Source of the DNA: an uncultured Candidatus Binatia bacterium
GTDB lineage: Bacteria; Desulfobacterota; Binatia; Bin18
NCBI GenBank assembly: GCA_958296235.1
Contig: OY282457.1
Coordinates: 496,001 to 560,000, forward strand
Direction of reading: 5' to 3'
DNA: 64,000 bases
Below are positions 39,104 through 46,197 of this stretch, piece after piece. Position numbers and translations under genes: made by a program. Within the stretch, counting starts at the first letter, position 1. Every line of letters begins with the position of its first letter. Under the pieces are notes generated by a model. The model saw only the letters and a program-made list of their open reading frames with translations. It searched no databases and had not been told where the DNA came from.

Positions 39104-39316
39104 ATGTACGTTGATGTGAGTTGTAAAAAATGTGGACAGCAAAAACGGATGGACATTGGCGCTCCCCGCAACGAGGCCCTTGAAGACCATTTGCACTACT
39201 TGAAAGAACGCCTCACCCACCAGCCCAGTTTTCAGTGTTTTGGCGGTCATTTTGAACTGTCCGCCCCGCTCCCCGACTTTTGGGACATCCAATGGGAGAC
39301 GCTCGGAGACAGCTAG
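39104..39316 (+). CDS. Small hypothetical CxxC protein
   Basis: A 70-residue protein from ATG 39104 (MYVDVSCKKCGQQKRMD) with an N-terminal CxxC pair and a third Cys near position 44 (FQCFGGHF), suggesting a metal or redox site, and a Trp-rich C-terminus (DFWDIQWETLGD). I do not recognise it. It lies 78 bases upstream of the LeuA-domain gene on the same strand, so may belong to that transcript. Confidence 0.5.
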   Translation: MYVDVSCKKCGQQKRMDIGAPRNEALEDHLHYLKERLTHQPSFQCFGGHFELSAPLPDFWDIQWETLGDS

Positions 39317-39394: not shown

Positions 39395-39892
39395 ATGGCA
39401 CAACAACCTGAACAAAGCGAAGGATTCTTCACTGAGACCACCACGCCGCAAGCCTCGCAAGACGTCGAACGGTGGCGTCAAGACCCTGACTATCCCTCTC
39501 CGTTCCGCGTTATCCGCTGGCGTGTGATTGACGAAGTATGGAACGGGCAAAGCGCCATCGACGCGGTTGTCCTGGTTGAAGTGGATGAACAACACGATTT
39601 TGGCGCAGCGCAAGGGGTGGGCGGCGTCCATGCGCTGGACCAGGCCCTGCGTCAGGTTCTGACAAAACACTTCCCCTTTCTTGAGGGTGTGGGCCTGGTT
39701 GAATTGTACACCCACCGAGGCGGTGCCGGGACGGCAGCAGAGGTTGTTTCCATCATGAAGTTCAGTGATGGCAGACGGCAGTGGAGCACCATGCGTCAAT
39801 CACGCGACCTGCTCGAATCAGCCTGGCTCGCCCTTATTGACGGGTATGAGTGGATTATTGCCAAATCTCATCAGAAAAAAATGTCGCGATAA
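39395..39892 (+). CDS. Stand-alone LeuA-type regulatory domain protein
   Basis: A 165-residue protein whose residues about 35-160 match the C-terminal allosteric domain of 2-isopropylmalate/citramalate synthase (LeuA/CimA): RVIRWRVIDEVW, AAQGVGGVHALDQALRQVL, FPFLEGVGLVELYTHRGG, GTAAEVVSIMKFSDGRRQW and STMRQSRDLLESAWLALIDG. In the synthases this domain binds the end product (Leu or Ile). No catalytic TIM barrel precedes it; upstream sequence is a different gene. It is an orphan regulatory or amino-acid-binding domain. The selenoprotein gene starts 16 bases later. Confidence 0.7.
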   Translation: MAQQPEQSEGFFTETTTPQASQDVERWRQDPDYPSPFRVIRWRVIDEVWNGQSAIDAVVLVEVDEQHDFGAAQGVGGVHALDQALRQVLTKHFPFLEGVGLVELYTHRGGAGTAAEVVSIMKFSDGRRQWSTMRQSRDLLESAWLALIDGYEWIIAKSHQKKMSR

Positions 39893-39908
39893 GAAAAGAG
39901 GAAGCCAG

Positions 39909-40268
39909 ATGTCAAAAGGAAAAACGCGCCTGGACTGGCAGTATCATCGCCCGAGTTGAGTGACCTGTAAAAAAGCGCAAGAGTTTCTTGTGCAAAAAGA
40001 AGTGACCGCCGCCAGCGTTGTGAATGCGCGCAAAGAGCAATTTGATCGTGCCCGGACACTTGCATTGCTGCGACCGCTCAGCGAAGTCGTTGCCGTGAAG
40101 GGCAAAAAAATTCTTCGTTTTTCTCTGAAAAAAGGCCAGCCACCATCTGACGCCTTGCTTGCGGCCGTCATTGGCCCGTCGGGCAATCTACGCGCTCCGG
40201 CCATACGCGCAGGGAAAACACTTGTCGTTGGCTTTCATCCCGACGTGTATGCTGAGCTTTTTGGGTAG
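39909..40268 (+). CDS. Predicted selenoprotein, thioredoxin-fold ArsC/Spx-like, UxxC motif
   Basis: ATG 39909 follows AGAGGA at 39897-39902. The frame meets one TGA at 39957-39959 and then stays open to 40268 (119 residues with Sec at 17). Around it the protein reads DWQYHRPS-U-VTCKKAQEF: U17 and C20 make a UxxC pair at the end of the first strand, where ArsC/Spx/glutaredoxin-like proteins have CxxC. The downstream half has the family's LLRPLSEVV and the C-terminal LRAPAIRAGKTLVVGF cis-Pro-like strand (RAPAI). The GTG at 39960 lacks a ribosome site and would drop the whole N-terminal strand, so it is a poor start. A SECIS-like hairpin follows the TGA. Probable redox enzyme; partner unknown. 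Confidence 0.8.
39975..39993 (+). promoter_or_regulatory. Candidate bacterial SECIS hairpin
   Basis: Arms gcgcaag (39975-39981) and cttgtgc (39987-39993) pair over 7 bp (one G-U) around the 5-base loop agttt. The loop begins 22 bases after the TGA and has G at its second position, in keeping with the described bacterial SECIS pattern (short stem, small loop with an early G, 16-37 bases from UGA). SelB would bind it to decode UGA as selenocysteine. It lies inside the coding sequence, as in bacteria. Confidence 0.6.
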
Positions 40269-40343: not shown

Positions 40344-43280
40344 ATGTCCCGCCGCACCCCCCGCCAGACCGAACCCAGCGTCAACACGGCCCTGGCCGAC
40401 CTGCTCAAAGGCATGCTGCCCGGCTGTACCGTGCGCTCTGAGCACACCCGGCTCATTGACCGACACCCCGGCCTCCAGCTGGACAATCTGATTACCGCCC
40501 CGGACCGGGCACCCGTGGCAGTCGAAGCCGAATACCTGCCAGCGCATAGCGTAGAACCCGAAGCGACCGCCCGGCTTGGTTTGCCGGTCGTGGGCGAACC
40601 CAATCCCATTGAGGCTGCTATCGCCCTGCGTTACCCGCAAGATGTCGGTTATGCAGACGATTTGCGTCCAGCCCTCACCGGGGCTGAGCTGTCCTACGCT
40701 CTGTTCACCAAACAAGGAGAGAACCTTGGGCGCTTTCCAACCACCGGCTGGCTAACCGGCTCAGTGGCCGACCTGGCCGACCTGATTCGTCTGGCGTCCA
40801 TTCCCCAGCACGCAGTAGACGCCGCAGCTACTGCCCTGGAAGAGGGGATTGACCGGGCTGTAACCATTCTGCACGACATGGCGACCCGCCGCCCGGCGAT
40901 TGCCGCGACCATTGCCCGGCTGCTGGGCATGGCTGATGTGTCTCAGACCCGCCGTATGGCCTGCGCCATTATCGCTAACGCCCTGGTGTTCCACGAGCGC
41001 TTGGCCGGGATGCACGCGGAGGTCAAACCGCTGCACTTGGTCTGCGGCCCGTCCGTAGCCAACCCCCAGGCAGAAATCCTGCTCGCCTGGTCTCGCATTC
41101 TGGACATCAACTACTGGGCTATTTTCGCCATTGCCCGTGATATTGCGGCGCAATTACCGCCCGATACTGCGGCCCCTATCCTGAGTGCGCTCCGCGAGAC
41201 CGCGCAGGACATCACCACCGCGGGCGTGACCAACGCGCACGCCCTGACCGGGCGCATCTTCCAGCGTTTGATTGCCGACCGTAAATATCTGGCAACTTTC
41301 TACACCTTACCGGCCTCTGCGGCCTTACTGGCACGCTTAGCCGTCGCCAAGCTGAACGGCCTAGCCTGGGCCGATGCCGACGCGATCGCCAAGCTGCGCA
41401 TTGGCGACTTTGCGTGTGGAACGGGCGCGCTCCTGTCCGCGGTGTATGAACAGGTCGCGACCCGTTTTGAGCGCGCCGGCGGCGACCCGGCGCAGTTGCA
41501 CCCGGCCATGATGGAAGAGGTATTGTACGGCTGCGACGTGATGCCCTCGGCCATTCACATTACCGGCTCAACCCTGTCCGGGATGTGGCCGCAGGTGCAA
41601 TTCGGCAAATCACGGCTGTACACCCTGGCCTATGGCCGACAGTCGGACGCCAGCGTGAAAATCGGTTCGCTGGAACTGCTCCACGCGACAAAACAATTAG
41701 TGCTCATCAACACCAGCGACCCGGCCCAGCGGACTGGTAGCGTAGGGGAGGAGACTGCGACCCATATTCTTACCGACATCCCCAATGAGGGGTTTGACCT
41801 GGTAATTATGAACCCGCCGTTTACCAGCAACACCAAGCATTACGATGCCGATGACGGGGTTCTGAACGCTGCCTTTGCTGCTTTCGATACATCCAAGACT
41901 GACCAGGATGCTATGGCGGTTCGCATGAATGAGCAGACTGTGGATACCTGCTATCACGGACACGCTGGCTTGGCTTCGGCCTTTGTGGCGCTGGCAGACC
42001 GCAAGGTACGCCCCGGTGGTATCGTTGCCTTCGTGCTGCCGTTCACCGCAATCAACGGCTCGTCCTGGGCCAAGTTCAGACAACTGATTGCCACGGACTA
42101 CACTGACGTAACGATTGTTAGCCTCGCGGCCAATGGCAGTAATATGTCGTTTTCGTCCGATACCGGCATGGCCGAATGCCTGGTTGTTGCCCGCAAGGCA
42201 GAGGCGGATGCAGGGGCAAGCGATGTTTCGTCCTCACCCGAAAATCGGGGACGCTTCATATCACTGAAGCGTAGGCCACAGGACTTTGCCCACGCCGCAG
42301 CCCTAGCTGTTGGCCTCATGCACTCCGAACCCGTCAGGCAGCTTGAAGACGGGCCATATGGCGGTACGCCGGTGATGGTCGGAGACGAACGTGCCGGCGA
42401 GACCTTGGACGCGCCCATTGGCAGTTATGAAAGCGGTTGGAGCGCTGCGCGTATTCTCGATGCGGCTGTCGCCCAAACCGCTCATACGCTCTCCACCGGC
42501 AAACTGTGGCTGCCCGCAGAACCGGAAGCGCTTCCATTACCCATTGCTCAGTTGAAGCAAGTCGGGCGGCGTGGTTTAGACTCCCAATTGTTCATTAGTG
42601 CGGCCCACAAGGGACCGTTCATCAGGGCGGCTGCTAGTCCGACCGTTACGTATCCAGCTTTGTGGAATCACAATGCTAAAACTGAGATGCAACTAATCTG
42701 TGTCCCCGATTGTCAACTCCTGGTAAGGCCAGGCATGGAACGGAGAGCTTCTGAGGTGTGGGCAACCGCTAGCCGTGTCCATATCAACCGCGATTTTACT
42801 TTTGGTTCTCAGCCCCTTGCGGTTGCTTTCACCGAACAGGAGTCAGTCGGCGGCAGGGTGTGGCCCAATGTGATTTTTGACAACAAAAATTTTGACTATG
42901 CCTTCACGGTATGGGGCAATAGTACATTGGGATTGGTGTGTTACTGGTGGCATTCCAGCCGTCAACAATCAAGCAAGGCCAGCATGACGATACGCGCTGC
43001 GGAAGCGCTCCCCATTCTCGACCTCCGCACGCTGAGCGATGAGCAGTTGTTGACCGCTGAGGCTATTTTCAACGAGTTCCGGGATACGGAATTGCTGCCG
43101 GCCTACTTGGCCGATGCCGACCCTAACCGCGCCTTGCTTGACCGCTATGTCGTCTGCGACCTGCTGGGCTTTGACGAAGACACTTACCACGCCGTGCGCC
43201 GCCTGGCCGCCAAGTGGTGCGCCGAGCCGTCGGTGCATGGGGGGAAGGGGCGTCCGAAGAATGCTGGGACTGTTGCCTGA
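40344..43280 (+). CDS. N6-adenine DNA methyltransferase, large single-chain form
   Basis: A 978-residue protein. Methylase motif I is GDFACGTGALL (about residue 353) and motif IV is the catalytic NPPF (about 490), with further class I MTase signatures (IVAFVLPFTAINGSSWAKF, about 560). The N-terminal 100 residues (LDNLITAPDRAPVAVEAEY) look like a degenerate PD-(D/E)xK nuclease core in which the usual E-x-K reads E-x-E. The C-terminal 300 residues may be a target-recognition part. No separate specificity or restriction subunit is adjacent. Only a weak ribosome site (AAAAAAGG) precedes ATG 40344. Confidence 0.8.
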   Translation: MSRRTPRQTEPSVNTALADLLKGMLPGCTVRSEHTRLIDRHPGLQLDNLITAPDRAPVAVEAEYLPAHSVEPEATARLGLPVVGEPNPIEAAIALRYPQDVGYADDLRPALTGAELSYALFTKQGENLGRFPTTGWLTGSVADLADLIRLASIPQHAVDAAATALEEGIDRAVTILHDMATRRPAIAATIARLLGMADVSQTRRMACAIIANALVFHERLAGMHAEVKPLHLVCGPSVANPQAEILLAWSRILDINYWAIFAIARDIAAQLPPDTAAPILSALRETAQDITTAGVTNAHALTGRIFQRLIADRKYLATFYTLPASAALLARLAVAKLNGLAWADADAIAKLRIGDFACGTGALLSAVYEQVATRFERAGGDPAQLHPAMMEEVLYGCDVMPSAIHITGSTLSGMWPQVQFGKSRLYTLAYGRQSDASVKIGSLELLHATKQLVLINTSDPAQRTGSVGEETATHILTDIPNEGFDLVIMNPPFTSNTKHYDADDGVLNAAFAAFDTSKTDQDAMAVRMNEQTVDTCYHGHAGLASAFVALADRKVRPGGIVAFVLPFTAINGSSWAKFRQLIATDYTDVTIVSLAANGSNMSFSSDTGMAECLVVARKAEADAGASDVSSSPENRGRFISLKRRPQDFAHAAALAVGLMHSEPVRQLEDGPYGGTPVMVGDERAGETLDAPIGSYESGWSAARILDAAVAQTAHTLSTGKLWLPAEPEALPLPIAQLKQVGRRGLDSQLFISAAHKGPFIRAAASPTVTYPALWNHNAKTEMQLICVPDCQLLVRPGMERRASEVWATASRVHINRDFTFGSQPLAVAFTEQESVGGRVWPNVIFDNKNFDYAFTVWGNSTLGLVCYWWHSSRQQSSKASMTIRAAEALPILDLRTLSDEQLLTAEAIFNEFRDTELLPAYLADADPNRALLDRYVVCDLLGFDEDTYHAVRRLAAKWCAEPSVHGGKGRPKNAGTVA

Positions 43281-43290
43281 CGGCTCGGTG

Positions 43291-43405
43291 TTGACAACGA
43301 CCCCTTCCTTCCCTACATCTGGGGAGGAGAGTTATACTAGCATAATTGTCAAGCAAGAAAGGAGCTTCCTTCCCTACACCTGGGGAAGAGAGGTTACGCT
43401 AAAAT
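43291..43405 (+). repeat. Two direct repeats with 61-base period and promoter-like boxes
   Basis: A unit starting cttccttccctaca at 43304 recurs at 43365; 28 bases match with two mismatches, and weaker similarity continues for about 12 more bases. Each unit holds a short palindrome (in copy 2, cttccc ... gggaag). TTGACA lies at 43291; CATAAT (43341) and TAAAAT (43400) follow the two units. A duplicated promoter/operator for the gene at 43430 is the simplest reading; a two-repeat CRISPR relic is less likely. Confidence 0.5.
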
Positions 43406-43429
43406 GCCAGATCAACCGACGGTACAACC

Positions 43430-43750
43430 ATGAAGCACATCACAACAAAGCCATATGCACCCCGCCTACAGACGTACCGCACGCCGCGCACCAGTGCGGG
43501 ACGGCCAGCCCGGAACCGTTCGCTTAGCACGAGAGACGTCGGGGCTTTTGTCCGGGAAATGACTAAACTCCACGACACAGGGACCTTGTCCAAGGACGAC
43601 TATCAGCAGCTCGTGTTGCTGGCGTGTAGCGCGTATGTTCAGCAAGAGGCAGAGAATTATTTAGGAAAATTTGAGGATCGTTTGGGGAAGTTTCTGGAAA
43701 AAACGTTTTCTCCAGAACGCTTGGCACGAGTGCTCTCGCCTTCGCGTTAA
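43430..43750 (+). CDS. Small hypothetical protein
   Basis: A 106-residue protein, basic at the N-terminus (residues 1-33: KPYAPRLQTYRTPRTSAGR...) and helical after (LSTRDVGAFVREMTKLHDT, SKDDYQQLVLLACSAYVQQE). I do not recognise it. It lies between a DNA methyltransferase and a membrane protein in the accessory patch, and the next gene starts 12 bases after its stop. No clear ribosome site. Confidence 0.5.
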   Translation: MKHITTKPYAPRLQTYRTPRTSAGRPARNRSLSTRDVGAFVREMTKLHDTGTLSKDDYQQLVLLACSAYVQQEAENYLGKFEDRLGKFLEKTFSPERLARVLSPSR

Positions 43751-43762
43751 GGACGTGAATCG

Positions 43763-44188
43763 GTGACTGACAAGACCACAGACGGCACTGATATATCGCT
43801 CACAGAGTCAGGATCAGAGAGCGAAAGGCAAAAGCCGTCCGAACAGGAGATGCTAGAGGAACGCTCTGTTGTTTCTTCCCAAGTAAAGCAATTCTTCGCC
43901 GGCAGAATTGGTCCCGCCCCTGACCCGCTGATTGAAAAGTTCGACCCAAGCCACATCACTAAATTCCTTGATCTTGCTGGCAAGAACGATGAGCGAACGT
44001 TTGAGGACTCCAAGGCCGACCGGCGCTACAAGATGGCTTACATCCTGATTGGGCTTCTCTCGTTCGGTCTATTAACAGCCTATATGATGCCGATTGACAA
44101 GGAACTCTACAAGCAAGTCATTCAACTACTTATTGCGGTCGGTGGCGGCTTTGGAGCAGGCTATGGCTATCGGCGTTTGCAAGAATAG
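43763..44188 (+). CDS. Hypothetical two-helix membrane protein (DUF2335-like)
   Basis: GTG 43763; 141 residues. An acidic, low-complexity N-terminus (Ser/Glu/Asp-rich to about 45) leads to GPAPDPLIEKFDPSHITKFL and two C-terminal membrane helices (MAYILIGLLSFGLLTAYMM and LYKQVIQLLIAVGGGFGAG). The pattern 'GP.P.P..LE......' before two helices recalls DUF2335 predicted membrane proteins, but similarity is weak. Possibly co-transcribed with the 106-residue gene. Two-helix proteins next to DNA-modifying enzymes can be phage-defence effectors; no evidence here decides that. Confidence 0.5.
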   Translation: MTDKTTDGTDISLTESGSESERQKPSEQEMLEERSVVSSQVKQFFAGRIGPAPDPLIEKFDPSHITKFLDLAGKNDERTFEDSKADRRYKMAYILIGLLSFGLLTAYMMPIDKELYKQVIQLLIAVGGGFGAGYGYRRLQE

Positions 44189-44388: not shown

Positions 44389-45060
44389 CTATACAGGTCG
44401 TTTCAACGGCGTCTCCCACTGATCCACGCAGGTAATTTCTTCAACTGCCATACGGCGCACAGGGCCAAATTTTCCCATCGGGTAGCCGACCGGAAGGAGG
44501 GCATAGGTCGAGATATTATCCGGCAGATTGAGGACCGGCCTCAGTTCTTCCTCGTGCAGCGAACAGACCGTGGTGAGCGTAGCGCCGAGCCCCAGGGCAC
44601 GACAGGCCAGCAGCATATTCTGCACCGCAGGATAAATGCTTGACCCTGACAGACGGGCCAGCTTCGCCGCTAATTGCGCGCCAGCCTCACCCGGCGGCAT
44701 AGGCCGTTCTTTGAGACAGGCAAAAATAAGGACCGGCACTTCAGCCAGATTGTCGGCTAAATAGCTGGCGGCATCCAGTAATTTTCTGAATTTTCCTTCT
44801 TCCATATGGCTCGGTCCCGGCCGACCATCGTAAATGGTCCGCGCTTGTTCCCAGCCTTTTTGATAGATGTGTTGGACTTTTCGTTTGACTTCCGCATCTT
44901 TCACCACGAGAAAGCGCCAGTGCTGGGTATTGCCGCCACTCGGCGCCCGAATACCAGCGTCGAGGATTTGATAAATCATATCGTCCGAGACCGGGTCGGT
45001 TTTCAGCCGGCGCATACTCCGGGTAGAAAACATGATGTCAAACAATTCCGCTTGTGCCAT
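44389..45060 (-). CDS. Nitroreductase-family protein
   Basis: AAGGAGG stands before ATG 45060; 223 residues. FMN-dependent nitroreductase fold with STRSMRRLKTDPVSDDMIYQIL, the flavin-contact APSGGNTQHWRF and the C-terminal LLPVGYPMGKFGPVRR. These dimeric enzymes reduce nitro groups, quinones or enones with NAD(P)H, or dehalogenate. It is convergent to nothing on the left and starts near the lipoprotein hydrolase gene, which is divergent. Confidence 0.87.
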   Translation of the reverse strand: MAQAELFDIMFSTRSMRRLKTDPVSDDMIYQILDAGIRAPSGGNTQHWRFLVVKDAEVKRKVQHIYQKGWEQARTIYDGRPGPSHMEEGKFRKLLDAASYLADNLAEVPVLIFACLKERPMPPGEAGAQLAAKLARLSGSSIYPAVQNMLLACRALGLGATLTTVCSLHEEELRPVLNLPDNISTYALLPVGYPMGKFGPVRRMAVEEITCVDQWETPLKRPV

Positions 45061-45249
45061 GAAGCGCCTCCTTACCTGGTTCTGTGTCCCCTTGTCGGAA
45101 TTCCTCAGCACGGCTAGAGTAACCGGCCAGTATTTCAGTATCCAACAAAAAGGGAGCAATGAATAATGCAGGCGCATTGTGCGTGCCTGCTCGCCGGGTG
45201 TCAAATGACACACCGCACTCTTCACAACACACGAAGGAGTACGCAGGGT

Positions 45250-46197
45250 ATGGAGGGACTTTACAACGGGCAACGATCACATGCAGGCAGAGGCGTACTC
45301 CTGGCGGTCGCCCTTATCTTGACCGGCTGTGGAGGTTCAGCGCCGAGCCTGACGGGAGAGGAGATTCAAGCCAGGAATCCCAACCATACCTATGTGGAAA
45401 TTGAGGGTGTTGCGCTCCATTACCAGCAAACCGGCCTGGGCCGTCCGCTTATTTTTATCCACGGCCTGCTTGAAGATTACCGTATCTGGCGGCATATCAC
45501 CCCAGGGCTGACCTATGGCAATACGGTCTATGAGCTGGATTTGATGGGCTTCGGCCTGTCTGAGAAGCCGCAGGATAAAACCTATGACCTGGACACCTAT
45601 CTGGCGCAACTCACCGCCTATATTGAGAACTTCCACTTAGAAAACATTATTCTTGCGGGCCATGACTTCGGAGCGGTCATCGCCGCAGCCTATACCATCC
45701 AGAACCCGGCCAACGTCCATAAGCTGATCCTGATGAGCGCCCCAATCTCGGCGCATGAAAGTCTGCCGCTCAATATACGCCTGCTCGGGGTTCCCCTGAT
45801 TGGCAGCCTGCTGAGCGGAGACTGGTTTCTCAAGCGTATCCTTCAGGAGGGCGTGTTTGACAAGCAAGTCATGGGCGATGCTATGGTCAAACAATATCTT
45901 GAGCCATTCGAGGATGACCCTGGGGCTCGCGCGGCTCTGCGTAAATTTCTCCGCGAGTTTGATCTCGACCGGGTCGTTGAAGAGGAGATTCTTCCCAACC
46001 TGAGTGCGCTCAGCATGCCAATCCTGCTCCTCTGGGGCGGCCAGGATCAATTTCTCTCCATGGATGTCGCGCGCGAGCTTGATGTGGCCATTCCAGGCGC
46101 GGATTTACAAGTCGTCACTCGCAGCGGACACTACCTCCTTGAGGACCGGCCGGAAGATGTCCGACAGCAAATCAAAGAATGGATAGACAAACGTTGA
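45250..46197 (+). CDS. Alpha/beta hydrolase lipoprotein with Asp nucleophile
   Basis: ATG 45250 (MEGLYNGQ) gives 315 residues; GAAGGAG lies upstream. A lipobox (LILTGC, Cys about residue 26) predicts a lipid-anchored envelope protein. Alpha/beta-hydrolase marks: oxyanion HGLLED, nucleophile elbow GHDFGAV (Asp, about 138), acid in WGGQDQFLS and His in SGHYLLEDRPEDV. The Asp in GHDxG is the signature of epoxide hydrolases and haloalkane dehalogenases, not esterases. A lipoprotein of this type is unusual. Confidence 0.8.
   Translation: MEGLYNGQRSHAGRGVLLAVALILTGCGGSAPSLTGEEIQARNPNHTYVEIEGVALHYQQTGLGRPLIFIHGLLEDYRIWRHITPGLTYGNTVYELDLMGFGLSEKPQDKTYDLDTYLAQLTAYIENFHLENIILAGHDFGAVIAAAYTIQNPANVHKLILMSAPISAHESLPLNIRLLGVPLIGSLLSGDWFLKRILQEGVFDKQVMGDAMVKQYLEPFEDDPGARAALRKFLREFDLDRVVEEEILPNLSALSMPILLLWGGQDQFLSMDVARELDVAIPGADLQVVTRSGHYLLEDRPEDVRQQIKEWIDKR

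Follow-up and report, generated by a model that had tools for sequence, protein, structure and literature searches.

A probable UxxC selenoprotein of the ArsC/Spx-like family NF041106 in an uncultured Candidatus Binatia bacterium

Reading frame and in-frame TGA at the locus

The window, i.e., the whole stretch of 64,000 nt that was analyzed, corresponds to positions 496001–560000 of a single contig of 4.62 Mb. On its forward strand, a frame of 119 residues (39909–40268) extends from an ATG at 39909 to a TAG at 40266–40268 and contains one in-frame TGA at codon 17 (39957–39959; translation: MSKGKTRLDWQYHRPSUVTCKKAQEFL...GNLRAPAIRAGKTLVVGFHPDVYAELFG). The TGA stands in for the first Cys of a CxxC motif, which would be read as UxxC (U17, C20), and the partner Cys20 is encoded by TGT at 39966–39968. 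The codons for R95, A96, and P97 (40191–40199) specify a conserved Pro loop that faces the active site in the fold. Upstream of the start codon, a leader that separates it from the preceding ORF (39893–39908) carries AGAGGA, which resembles a ribosome-binding site, and purine-rich leaders precede many orthologues as well. Downstream of the TGA, a hairpin at 39975–39993 is formed by a stem (GCGCAAG, 39975–39981; CTTGTGC, 39987–39993) and the loop AGTTT (39982–39986); the stem begins 15 nt and the loop 22 nt past the TGA. The original prediction had described a single in-frame TGA in place of the first Cys, together with the AGAGGA and the hairpin, and all of these features and their coordinates proved correct on re-reading.

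An ordinary ORF list splits the region in two, with an upstream frame that overlaps it and a frame of 102 residues that starts at a GTG (39960–40268). It had been suggested that ordinary annotation would truncate the gene, and this is indeed what the start at the GTG at 39960 amounts to. The locus is a clean example of stop-codon-based annotation that shortens a gene and removes its redox centre. When the 64-kb window was scanned for frames that combine read-through and a SECIS-like hairpin, the sole results were 39909–40268 and one spurious-looking low-complexity frame.

Conservation and decoding of the TGA

Orthologues were found in 30 of 145 relatives from the same class. Each of the 30 has exactly one in-frame TGA, always at the same position and preceded by the conserved motif DWxYHRxG. 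A search of public named genomes gave more than 500 relatives. Of the best 80 loci, 72 have TGA and eight have Cys at the site; most of these loci belong to Planctomycetota, Acidobacteriota, and Melainabacteria, and a few to Myxococcota, Methylomirabilota, Tectomicrobia, and others. Sec or Cys occupies the site of residue 17 in 108 of the 108 homologues read, as had been anticipated for most of them. Homologues starting after the TGA had been named as evidence against a selenoprotein; the homologues instead extend through the TGA and include DWxYHRxG. Within the genus, synonymous changes outnumber non-synonymous ones both before (8 vs. 5) and after the TGA (143 vs. 58), which is a purifying pattern.

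One of the public records (L052, CAMBFS010000010.1) is titled Klebsiella pneumoniae. Its name looks wrong, since the contig matches G013, a member of the source's own family.

For bacterial SECIS elements, published limits are a loop of 3–9 nt, a stem of 4–16 bp, a G in the first two loop positions, a spacing of 16–37 nt, and a folding energy of ≤ −7.5 kcal/mol (PMC13188914). The hairpin lies within all of them (a 7-bp stem and a 5-nt loop with G as its second base, spaced 22 nt from the TGA), with energies of −8.9 kcal/mol for the hairpin alone and −10.4 kcal/mol for a 45-nt stretch. A 7-bp stem is present at the same place in 100 Sec genes, and nearly all loops read (A/G)GTT. With the pairing register taken as the best of four per clade and the same choice given to synonymous shuffles, the Sec genes have on average 6.35 of 7 stem pairs, compared to 5.19 ± 0.07 in the shuffles (maximum 5.37, n = 200). 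The eight Cys homologues reach a mean of 4.1 stem pairs, no more than their own shuffles. In column shuffles, which like the synonymous ones leave kinship among the sequences in place, at most 76.1% of cells pair, as against 88.9% in the alignment, and cells changed on both sides of the stem, i.e., compensatory changes, number at most 20, as against 47. Versions of the stem slid along the sequence pair far less than the true position. Despite the caveats of kinship and register, the slid controls and the absence of the signal from the Cys homologues agree with conserved pairing. For single genes, the 45-nt local folding energy gave too noisy a measure (mean z of −1.1 relative to synonymous shuffles), and it was the pair counts at fixed positions that were decisive. 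In other families of the source's class, the hairpin reads GCGTCCA-AGTTTC-TGGACGC and is displaced by one base, and locus L025 has GCCCGGG-AGTTT-CTCGGGC; the stem is thus kept while its letters change. The proposal that the hairpin fits the bacterial SECIS pattern is borne out by both the published limits and the conserved pairing.

The genome also encodes the machinery for selenocysteine. We identified selA (595.4 bits), selB (385.7 bits, above the cut-off), selD (309.8 bits), and, adjoining selA, a tRNA-Sec with a TCA anticodon (68.6 bits), in agreement with the earlier expectation that the organism would use selenocysteine. Within the class, selA exceeds the cut-off in 29 of the 30 genomes that carry the gene, as well as in 91 of the 115 that lack it. 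The source's class is rich in Sec users, and co-occurrence with selA alone is therefore weak support. In the sample tested outside the class, selA was found in 12/12 Sec genomes and 6/8 Cys genomes. The one class genome of the 30 without a selA match (G075, locus L034) has the gene in its TGA form; as this assembly is 87% complete and consists of about 450 contigs, selA may simply be missing from it.

In addition, the region beside selA contains two tRNA-Sec genes, roughly 1 kb from each other (C1:2956302-2956393 and C1:2957301-2957377; L039). Their sequences are nearly the same, except that 15 nt of the long variable arm are missing from the second. Six relatives of the same genus were searched, and five have one strong match each, the sixth none. 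Since the flanks of the two genes match, their sequences suggest a duplication of which the second gene would be the decayed copy.

Two readings would deprive the TGA of any link to selenocysteine. The codon could be a genuine stop or stem from faulty assembly, with the gene either starting at the GTG at 39960 or being a pseudogene, and a caller using the bacterial code does return 39960–40268 with a GTG start. However, the same TGA recurs in dozens of independent genomes, which excludes a base-call error, DWxYHR is conserved ahead of it, a start codon directly after the TGA is absent in most homologues, and the substitution counts given above have a purifying pattern; we regard this reading as very improbable. 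Even less probable is a lineage-specific reassignment of UGA to a standard amino acid, e.g., Trp. A lone in-frame TGA is by itself compatible with any reassignment, but guaA, a ferredoxin-like gene, a methyltransferase gene, and a hydrolase gene in the window end in TGA, and the orthologues in L016, L017, and L020 themselves terminate with this codon. Moreover, homologues without a TGA at the site have Cys there and not Trp, and tRNA-Sec, selA, selB, and selD are all present. The Sec machinery, the conserved TGA, and the agreement with the SECIS model uphold the selenoprotein reading of the original prediction. From its sequence, 39909–40268 very probably encodes a selenoprotein of the ArsC/Spx branch, likely an oxidoreductase, in which the UGA at codon 17 would be decoded as Sec by SelB and tRNA-Sec owing to the SECIS hairpin 15–34 nt downstream.

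Protein family, fold, and likely chemistry

The protein matches the NCBIfam model NF041106 (ArsC_rel_Se_1, "ArsC family (seleno)protein") with 128.0 bits (cut-off 85), residues 8–114 covering positions 1–107 of the 107 in the model. It shares the UxxC motif and the TGA at the site with this family, and nothing defining differs; the source member is extended by a few residues at its N-terminus and is preceded by a LeuA-type ORF that is specific to the source's family. The kind is already known from the literature. A 2026 review lists an "Arsenate reductase-like protein, NF041106, UxxC" and cites a 2008 ocean survey (PMC13188914). The Global Ocean Sampling selenoproteome of 2008 contains "Arsenate reductase 2" (cd03032), with an ArsC/Spx-type domain and UxxC as in the window gene, in 42 Sec and 238 Cys forms (PMC2398784). 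A 2006 survey described an ArsC-like selenoprotein of Deltaproteobacteria, homologous to thiol oxidoreductases (PMC1794560); it is likened to the present protein by description and comprised only two sequences. The window locus is thus another member of the catalogued NF041106 family, to which we add, modestly, the SECIS covariation, a census in which Sec forms prevail, and the wide range of hosts.

The ArsC/Spx-like thioredoxin fold that had been proposed was recovered by several approaches. Pfam ArsC (PF03960) scores 28.4 bits, above its gathering score of 24. An AlphaFold model with 78 homologues in the alignment and Cys modelled for Sec reached a pLDDT of 92 and a pTM of 0.85; in this predicted structure, U17 starts the first helix and P97 precedes the strand 98–101. 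In structural comparisons, the model came closest to ArsC-related proteins, Spx, and YffB, with moderate Z-scores of 8–9 and rmsd values of 2.7–2.9 over 86–90 residues. Foldseek puts Spx top, and sequence profiles agree on an ArsC/Spx-like fold. Invariant among the 78 homologues are W10, Y12, R14, U/C17, C20, G65, G89, G92, R95, A96, P97, G108, and F109, of which R95-A96-P97 aligns with the RRP of Spx. The His four residues ahead of the nucleophile is nearly invariant.

Two more specific functions have to be weighed against a general oxidoreductase. An Spx-like redox switch, which would bind RNA polymerase and sense oxidants via the UxxC pair, is unlikely. Spx (PDB 1z3e, 3gfk, 3l78) has the same fold and a CxxC at the same position, and the nearest solved structures include Spx with the C-terminal domain of the RNA polymerase alpha subunit; however, Spx has Cys where the window protein has Sec, and the Spx/MgsR model TIGR01617 gives 24.3 bits, below its cut-off of 75.05. 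We consider it quite unlikely that the protein is a genuine arsenate reductase whose catalytic Cys is replaced by Sec. ArsC-type arsenate reductases share the fold, the Pfam ArsC score exceeds its cut-off, and the near-invariant His has a counterpart in E. coli-type ArsC, at the same distance from the nucleophile. The arsenate reductase model TIGR00014, however, gives 18.9 bits, far under its cut-off of 106.05, and no ars genes recur among the neighbours at 108 loci. Furthermore, Ala directly precedes the conserved Pro in the window protein, whereas Spx has Arg there, and ArsC R773 has Arg at the matching position.

As the scores are far under the cut-offs of both the arsenate reductase and the Spx/MgsR model, the likely chemistry is a UxxC cycle of the thiol/disulfide type. 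The protein would most likely be a glutaredoxin/thioredoxin-type oxidoreductase, with Sec as the nucleophile and Cys20 as the resolving thiol. The U17 selenolate at the start of helix 1 would attack an oxidised substrate, C20 would resolve the intermediate as an intramolecular selenenylsulfide, and a cellular thiol system would re-reduce the protein. We infer this role from motif and fold alone, because no conserved neighbour indicates the substrate. A function established for one NF041106 member would extend to hundreds of genomes.

Family census and genomic surroundings

NF041106 members above the cut-off have one TGA in 28 of 28 cases in the source's phylum. Of 65 members from the phylum to which Planctomycetes bacterium K23_9 belongs, 55 have a TGA, and the remaining 10, only some of which were read individually, have no stop. 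Taken together, 83 of 93 members from these two phyla have a TGA. Sec forms thus dominate the present census, in contrast to their minority among "Arsenate reductase 2" in the ocean survey (PMC2398784). The UxxC family, mostly in its Sec form, is widespread among Planctomycetota, Acidobacteriota, Melainabacteria, and further lineages for which metagenome-assembled genomes are the main source of knowledge. Cultured species with the gene include Minicystis rosea (L084) and Planctomycetes bacterium K23_9 (L114). A quick tree, which is unrooted, poorly resolved, and gives no direction of change, places six Sec/Cys changes for the eight Cys sequences, at least three of them forced by well-supported branches. 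It is conceivable, albeit doubtful, that Sec is ancestral and dominant in NF041106, with several independent changes from Sec to Cys in lineages that mostly still make Sec. Such a direction, if true, would oppose the usual bacterial trend from Cys to Sec.

Upstream of the selenoprotein gene, the window contains a 67-aa ORF (39113–39316) and an orphan ORF of the LeuA_dimer regulatory-domain type (39395–39892), both on the forward strand. The two precede the gene in the same order in 13 genomes of the source's family and at no other locus examined. The LeuA_dimer-type ORF resembles the C-terminus of citramalate synthase (63 bits to TIGR00977) without the catalytic domain. The 67-aa ORF has a CxxC near its start and is 58–97% identical in 12 other genomes; a profile search gave no family match for it. 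We rejected the LeuA_dimer neighbour as a clue to function, as it is conserved in the source's family only. Clustering of 770 neighbouring ORFs from 108 loci revealed no widely recurring partner outside this family, and the LeuA-type neighbour therefore probably reflects local gene order and not function.

On the other side, a DNA methyltransferase-like gene of 978 aa and small ORFs (40344–44188) lie between the selenoprotein gene and a nitroreductase-like gene (44389–45273). From its sequence context, this stretch looks inserted, because in five relatives of the same genus the nitroreductase gene directly follows the selenoprotein gene, at a distance of 49–148 nt.
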